From positions 640,816 to 704,815 of the forward strand of contig CAKOGP040001869.1 in the NCBI GenBank assembly GCA_933822405.4: DNA of 64,000 bases, in the 5' to 3' direction. The DNA comes from Cylindrotheca closterium. Taxonomy: Eukaryota; Bacillariophyta; Bacillariophyceae; Bacillariales; Bacillariaceae. Below are positions 42,352 through 43,456 of this stretch, in pieces. A model generated the notes under the pieces. That model saw only the letters and a program-made list of their open reading frames with translations. It was not told the origin of the DNA and ran no database searches. Numbering within the stretch: position 1 is the stretch's first letter; the number at the start of each line of letters is the position of its first letter. Made by a program: the position numbers and the translations under genes.

Positions 42352-42542
42352 CTTGACAGAAGCTGCTTGATATGATATGAACGAATGAATACAGGAAGGT
42401 TGGGAATTTTCGCTGAAGCCGGTACTCGCACCGAGCGAGTGATGTGGCGCGGCATTTTGATTTTTTGATAAAAACGTACCAATAATTTCGAACAGGTGAA
42501 TATCTGTTTGAGAACATCAATTTTGGCCTTCTGTGTATCCGA
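42352..42542. other. 5' flank of the LRR gene up to the tRNA inverted repeat
   Basis: Short stretch before the tRNA arm; no coding or terminator feature seen. Confidence 0.4.
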
Positions 42543-42551
42543 AAGCATACT

Positions 42552-42632
42552 TCGAATGGTCACGTGTTCGACTCACGTCGGGCGCTTCTGTAGTAGCGCC
42601 TGTAGCTCAGTGGTAGAGCGTTCGATTGCAGA
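42552..42632 (+). tRNA. trnC-GCA: Circularly permuted tRNA-Cys(GCA), plus-strand copy
   Basis: Order of parts: positions 39-73 at 42552-42586, a 9-nt spacer at 42587-42595, positions 1-38 at 42596-42632, then T6 at 42633-42638. All stems pair once rejoined. Acceptor GCGCCTG with CGGGCGC (one T-G pair), discriminator T73. D stem GCTC/GAGC with loop AGTGGTA. Anticodon stem TTCGA/TCGAA with loop TTGCAGA, anticodon GCA (Cys). T stem ACGTG/CACGT with loop TTCGACT. T73 is the cysteine identity base. The 3' half is upstream of the 5' half, as in the permuted tRNA genes of red and green algae. No same-strand 3' half lies downstream, so a normal intron cannot explain it. Confidence 0.75.
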
Positions 42633-42790
42633 TTTTTTGGAAACCTTGGTGTTGTTTTGATTTTTGGTTGTTACTGTTTCATTATTTTTTATAAAAACAT
42701 TTGTTTACCGACATTCAACATTATCGAACAATCGAGCATCAAAACTATCGTAGTAACCTGGGCAAAAATTTGAAATCCTACAAAAAAGAG

Positions 42791-42871
42791 TCTGCAATCG
42801 AACGCTCTACCACTGAGCTACAGGCGCTACGATAGAAGCGCCCGACGTGAGTCGAACACGTGACCATTCGA
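42791..42871 (-). tRNA. trnC-GCA: Circularly permuted tRNA-Cys(GCA), minus-strand copy
   Basis: Minus-strand mirror of the plus copy: positions 39-73 at 42871-42837, 9-nt spacer 42836-42828, positions 1-38 at 42827-42791, then CTC and a T6 run at 42787-42782. All 73 mature positions are identical to the plus copy; only the spacer differs (two of nine bases). Box A (TAGCTCAGTGG) and box B (TGTTCGACTC) are present but in reversed order relative to a normal tRNA gene. Confidence 0.75.
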
Positions 42872-42880
42872 AGTATGCTT

Positions 42881-43456
42881 CTGGATGCAGCATTTAGTGA
42901 AAATAAGGCATATAAAGCTTATACACATTTGACGATAATCCTTGAACAACTGCGTTACGGCACCTTCATAGCATTCTGATTTCATTCTCTATAGATTTTA
43001 ATAGAAATCAATAGAGAGGAAATCTAAGTGTGACAATTTTAGAATTATCCATGTAAGTTATGGTATAATTGTACAGCATGGTACGATATTGTTGGAAGCG
43101 AAACGACATGAGTATTGTTAGTCCTGCTTTTTGCCTTCGTGGCGGTGGGATTTGAATTTCTCCGCCAAGGGCCATGAAACTACCAGGTTCTACGGGAGTG
43201 TTACAGGTTCACGTAAGTCGAAAATCGCCACATTTGGGCAACGGTTGCAAGAGTCAAATCCTGTTTCTGCGAAATTCAAGCGAACGAAAACCTCAAGAGA
43301 AACACAAACACTTTCAACTTTGCTTTCGATCAGACATTCACCTAACATTTGTGTGGAGTGTTTGTTTGCCGCCTGTTGTACCCGATATTTTACTTGCTCA
43401 GCTACTTGCAAGTGTTCCATCAATAAAAACAAGAGACTTGATAGAAAGCAACAACG
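42881..43456. other. Intergenic region between the tRNA pair and the PGPGW-like gene
   Basis: AT-rich. A tRNA-like fragment at ~43132-43155 was checked and set aside. 5' UTR/promoter of the next gene. No other feature. Confidence 0.4.

Follow-up and report, generated by a model that had tools for sequence, protein, structure and literature searches.

An inverted pair of putative circularly permuted tRNA-Cys(GCA) genes in a diatom genome

Where does a diatom obtain its cytosolic tRNA-Cys when its genome assembly yields no ordinary nuclear gene for it? The question is raised by an inverted repeat in C329:640816-704815, a stretch of 64,000 nt (the window) from a 47.6-Mb assembly in 572 contigs. 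The host is taken, on sequence grounds, as a pennate diatom near the Bacillariaceae; among named relatives of the neighbouring genes the best are from Bacillariaceae sp., at 80% and 70% identity, and from Cylindrotheca. Judged by their names, the two neighbouring genes also lie side by side in Bacillariaceae sp. (SGBAC_002510/002511) and on C. fusiformis scaffold22713. The repeat has two 105-nt arms, 93% complementary and separated by 146 nt, and in both of them the 3′ half of a tRNA-Cys(GCA) lies upstream of the 5′ half with a spacer bridging positions 73 and 1, the arrangement by which permuted tRNA genes are defined. It is very probable that each arm works as a circularly permuted tRNA-Cys(GCA) gene with the type II junction (37/38), whose product would mature through a circle, and this diatom probably gets its cytosolic tRNA-Cys from the two arms and nowhere else. 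We base this reading on the sequence and fold of the arms, the identity of their mature positions, the lack of an ordinary copy in the assembly and the presence of splicing endonuclease domains in the genome.

In each arm, tRNA positions 38-73 come first, then a spacer of 9 nt, then positions 1-37. The 81-nt unit of arm 1 occupies 42551-42631 on the forward strand and is preceded by a leader (42534..42550) that ends in GCATAC, six bases proposed as the 3′ splice side. The 3′ half, with the B box and T73 (42551..42586), is joined by the spacer TCTGTAGTA (42587..42595), which links position 73 to position 1, to the 5′ half with the A box and GCA anticodon (42596..42631); both halves were identified by the permuted model R3 (described below) and by ARAGORN after rejoining. 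A trailer of A and T6 follows (42632..42638), presumably an RNA polymerase III terminator. The 81-nt unit of arm 2 lies on the reverse strand at 42792-42872. Its leader (42873..42889) differs from that of arm 1 at 3 of 17 bases and keeps the GCATAC end, its 3′ half (42837..42872) and 5′ half (42792..42827), both found by R3, are identical with those of arm 1, its spacer TCTATCGTA (42828..42836) shows two differences, and its trailer of ACTC and T6 (42782..42791) is likewise a presumed terminator. Read from the sequence, the rejoined halves give a full cloverleaf with T8, A14, G15-C48, G18G19, T33, TTC at 54-56, A58 and T73, and the anticodon stem formed between the halves is an exact 5 bp. The spacer falls within the 1-74 range that PMC3978253 gives for permuted genes. 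A sequence-only reading of this DNA had described swapped halves around a 9-nt spacer making up a full tRNA-Cys(GCA), all of which stands, and had placed the junction at 38/39, which we move to 37/38 because of the splice-site geometry discussed below. The T6 run that it saw behind both arms is there, directly after the A in arm 1 (A-TTTTTT) and after an intervening CTC in arm 2 (A-CTC-TTTTTT). Elsewhere in the genome, a close inverted arrangement resembling the Cys pair is formed by two ordinary tRNA-Thr(AGT) genes (C392:146712-147064, L100).

In the unaltered window, neither ARAGORN nor Rfam at the gathering threshold reported a tRNA. That tRNAscan-SE in its normal mode would miss such genes had been predicted. 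ARAGORN made no call on unmodified arm 1 and called tRNA-Cys(gca) on the rejoined halves and on the doubled unit. R3, a model trained on eight ordinary nuclear tRNAs from this genome after permutation in silico, with the arms excluded, matched both arms with 67.7 bits (E 5.5e-19 and 5.6e-19, rough values from a short calibration) and had no further match in the window at E ≤ 10. R3 also scores pieces of ordinary tRNA genes and was therefore run as a control over 58 other loci together with the window. Among the 128 matches at E ≤ 1 the two arms ranked on top. Next came, with 51.6 bits, a Y-RNA-like element from a phage, then two pairs of neighbouring tRNA genes (44.3 and 40.8 bits), with all others at or below 35.1 bits. 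The permuted arrangement is not a chance occurrence. The unit is present in at least two copies in the 47.6-Mb genome; this and the other genome-wide pattern counts given here are lower bounds. The phage element (L075:3532-3676), a permuted tRNA-like module that sits on a long basal stem, comes from a 179-kb IMG/VR viral contig, where it lies between tRNA-Gly(ccc) and tRNA-Gln(ctg) in an examined 11.5 kb with 29 tRNA genes; its appearance is that of a phage Y-RNA-like RNA, and it has no Rfam call at gathering. A search of viral contigs with the D-arm string returned two contigs with viral tRNA genes, and a protein encoded beside the repeat found no relative among viral contigs.

The sequence-only reading had named beforehand a genome search for ordinary tRNA-Cys(GCA) genes as part of its possible refutation. 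Five pattern searches and one DNA search found no such nuclear gene in the assembly, and 50 ordinary nuclear tRNA genes were recovered along the way. A pattern of A box, D arm and GCA gave 12 matches, namely the two arms, the plastid trnC and nine more without an ARAGORN tRNA call. A similar pattern with up to three mismatches gave five: the two arms and one each on contigs C7, C70 and C95, these three all without GCA. The relaxed Cys pattern gave 77 matches, six of them with four D-stem pairs, including the two arms; this four-of-four filter also drops the plastid trnC and is therefore strict. Twenty of the 75 non-arm matches, among them the four others with a complete D stem, were fetched with flanks, and none fits a linear Cys model or Rfam tRNA at gathering; the plastid trnC is also among the 75, and 54 were judged from the matched string alone. 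With two patterns spanning A box to B box, 51 and 37 matches were obtained; 29 and 21 of these are the 50 distinct ordinary nuclear genes (Asn, elongator Met, Ile, Lys, Phe, Thr, Trp, Tyr, Ala, Leu and Ser), 12 and 8 belong to the organelles and 10 and 7 are unassigned or chance, one further match of the second set repeating a gene of the first. This tally covers the isoacceptors that fit the two patterns and was read by eye from the matched strings, with ARAGORN in agreement for those fetched. No nuclear Cys gene was among these matches, though the first pattern fits an ordinary copy of this tRNA. Used as a DNA query, the rejoined tRNA recovered the four halves and nothing else genome-wide. 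An Arabidopsis tRNA-Cys sequence used as a DNA query found nothing; it missed even the arms, and this query therefore shows nothing. Five identical tRNA-like strings (TAGCTTAGTGGCACATC...) on C201, C224, C235, C485 and C529 may be a dispersed repeat, and ARAGORN made no tRNA call in the one fetched (L073).

Ordinary trnC genes do occur in the organelles. One lies on each of C70 and C95, and the linear Cys model matches both the plastid trnC (L035) and the mitochondrial trnC (L011). C95 is taken as the mitochondrion, a frame by its trnC reading by eye as nad1 with ribosomal proteins adjoining; we infer that C7 and C70 are plastid, from a tmRNA and dense tRNA genes on C7. The nuclear genes next to the repeat encode cysteine, with six residues in P0001 and one in P0121.

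Are the arms alive, or are they relics? As had been stated from sequence, two of 90 bases differ between them and both lie in the spacer (TCTGTAGTA versus TCTATCGTA). Counted by eye and with the leader length set by the repeat boundary, 0 of 72 mature positions differ, against 5 of 26 in leader and spacer together (spacer 2/9, leader 3/17; Fisher p 0.001), and the sequence beyond the arms aligns between the two flanks in patches only. The claim that the mature bases are identical and T73 is kept, with drift confined to the removable part, thus holds up, and because of the same contrast the suggestion that these might be dead tRNA fragments is disfavoured. In its explicit form that suggestion supposes that tandem tRNA-Cys genes lost their outer halves and that the inner halves were then duplicated as an inverted repeat, a functional ordinary gene being left unassembled. 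Tandem duplication with loss of outer halves is, according to PMC3978253, a proposed origin of permuted genes anyway; the pairing between leader and trailer is not significant, and an assembly in 572 contigs could leave an ordinary gene out. Set against this are the unchanged mature positions between otherwise diverged leaders, spacers and outer flanks, the exact 5-bp anticodon stem across the halves, a T6 kept shortly behind the 5′ half in both arms and the failure to find an ordinary tRNA-Cys in the assembly, and we regard dead remnants as unlikely.

Less likely still is an RNA of the YrlA type, in which the tRNA-like module is closed, sits on a basal stem and binds Ro60/Rsr, and which is not a tRNA precursor. 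Among Rfam families, YrlA (RF02553) matches both arms best at a relaxed threshold, with 44.6 and 40.3 bits against a gathering score of 69. In the Rfam alignment it resembles the arms in having the T and acceptor arms ahead of the D arm, and PMC8394870 describes a tRNA-like domain with a large stem formed from both ends. The arms lack a basal leader-trailer stem beyond chance. Their whole-precursor folds do not decide the matter, with z scores of -0.45 in arm 1, where 59/200 shuffles were as good or better, and -1.75 in arm 2, which is fairly stable (7/200). The GCA anticodon loop and T73 are intact, and the genome has no TROVE (Ro60) match above cut-off (best 18.1 versus 23 bits) in a six-frame, intron-blind search. 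The layout of 105-nt arms 146 nt apart might also recall a tRNA-derived mobile repeat of SINE (short interspersed nuclear element) type or a foldback transposon. This we consider extremely improbable, given that two copies were listed, as a lower bound, in 47.6 Mb and that ordinary tRNA-Thr genes form a similar inverted pair.

As to the cut and the joint, the readings at 37/38 and 38/39 both yield a 7-nt anticodon loop. The splice-site geometry suggests 37/38, with base 38 being the T at the head of the 3′ half; alternatively, the junction may be at 38/39, with A38. Both leaders end GCAT-AC^T, such that GCA pairs with positions 33-35, position 32 is mismatched and AC^T38 forms a 3-nt bulge. 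The same layout, 33-35 paired and 32 mismatched, is seen in three of the four tRNA-Tyr introns in the genome. In all, anticodon-loop introns of 11-13 nt were found in two tRNA-Ala(TGC) and four tRNA-Tyr genes (C36:33692, C564:55859, C57, C106 and C351; L054-L059), their boundaries being placed at 37/38 from the anticodon stem. ARAGORN agreed on 37/38 for Ala, gave 36 and 39 in two Tyr genes and reported no intron in the other two. The intron ends pair with 33-35 in five of the six genes and make two of the three pairs in the sixth, and each leaves a 3-nt bulge (AC^T, AT^T, AT^A or AA^A). The leader therefore resembles an intron end, which fits the origin proposed for permuted genes in PMC3978253, in which an intron-containing gene is duplicated in tandem and the outer halves are lost. 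The three pairs at 33-35 and the bulge might belong to a bulge-helix-bulge or relaxed hBH motif at the junction. Folding of leader against trailer had been considered as proof of a bulge-helix-bulge motif and was dropped, the pairing not being significant against shuffles.

We propose the following route for the two genes, in which transcription, circularisation and end processing are modelled on work in Cyanidioschyzon and green algae. RNA polymerase III would transcribe leader, 3′ half, spacer, 5′ half and trailer, and the two halves would fold onto each other. The tRNA-intron splicing endonuclease would then cut after G37 and before base 38, trailer and leader acting as the ends of an intron, and a ligase would close the circle by sealing 37 to 38. 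RNase P and tRNase Z would excise the 9-nt spacer between 73 and 1, and CCA would be added last. PMC3978253 describes a pathway of this kind for C. merolae and green algae. There the splicing endonuclease probably makes the cuts at 37/38 in the swapped transcript, which is closed into a circle; RNase P and tRNase Z may then remove the spacer, and CCA is added. The splicing endonuclease domain PF01974 is present above cut-off at two loci in the genome.

A number of points weigh against this account. The absence of an ordinary tRNA-Cys holds as far as the 572-contig assembly goes. Human, yeast and Arabidopsis tRNA-Cys have A38, from which the T38 of the 37/38 junction departs. A match to 33-35 is expected in 5% of random leaders and is common to both arms by descent, and the leader-trailer energy does not exceed that of shuffled flanks (82/500 and 363/500 shuffles equal or better). 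While splicing endonuclease domains are present, no RtcB ligase domain was found in a six-frame genome search whose control was positive in 9 of 14 genomes, and ligation would therefore need another ligase. Upstream of the arms the best match to TATAAA has one mismatch in arm 2 and two in arm 1, with no consistent box; for comparison, 9 of 17 ordinary nuclear tRNA genes reach one mismatch or none, as do 17% of background stretches 60 nt long. The identity of the arms could stem in part from recent duplication or gene conversion, although these alone would not spare just the mature positions. Lastly, the published account of Nitzschia inconspicua (PMC8329260), whose annotation made use of tRNAscan-SE among other tools, reports tRNAs for every one of the 20 amino acids. 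The trait therefore need not be lineage-wide, and may be recent or local.

How do these genes compare with known systems? Permuted tRNA genes are of a kind already established in red and green algae, as the sequence-only reading had noted: by the account of PMC3978253, 34 genes were known in 2014 from six algae and one archaeon, and a second nucleomorph and Auxenochlorella have been added since. The closest parallels, from Table 1 of that paper, are the permuted Cys(GCA) genes of Ostreococcus lucimarinus, O. tauri and Micromonas pusilla, which share with the present pair the isoacceptor, the 37/38 junction, the lack of an extra intron and the nuclear location. The likeness is one of tabulated features, and the spacers there measure 26, 38 and 12 bp against 9 bp here; moreover, those hosts are green algae, whereas ours is a diatom, and thus a stramenopile, with two copies in an inverted repeat. 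Cyanidioschyzon merolae, for which a circular intermediate is reported in the same text, also has type II genes with short spacers (9 bp in Leu(CAG)) and a downstream T-stretch. It differs in having 11 permuted genes of several junction types, where we saw Cys alone and made no search for others, and a TATA-like sequence upstream of most of them, where we find no clear TATA. The nucleomorphs of Bigelowiella natans and Amorphochlora, as well as Auxenochlorella, likewise carry permuted halves in algal genomes, in other lineages, and the nucleomorph genes are tRNA-Ser rather than tRNA-Cys. Our searches of open-access literature, as far as its accessible text goes, turned up no published permuted nuclear tRNA gene from diatoms or any other stramenopile, in keeping with the earlier impression that no diatom case was known.

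Taken together, we think it likely that this diatom is wholly dependent on permuted genes for an essential cytosolic tRNA, and that these arose independently in stramenopiles from an intron-containing tRNA-Cys gene since lost, the intron ends surviving as leader and trailer. Leader and intron ends can be compared within one genome, which makes this route of origin testable. The findings also suggest that cytosolic tRNA-Cys may go unnoticed when diatom genomes are annotated for tRNAs in the standard way. If our reading is true, the permuted-tRNA trait reaches into a distant group of eukaryotes, an essential tRNA can be taken over by it, and every cysteine in the nuclear-encoded cytosolic proteins of this diatom would be delivered by a tRNA that has passed through a circular RNA.
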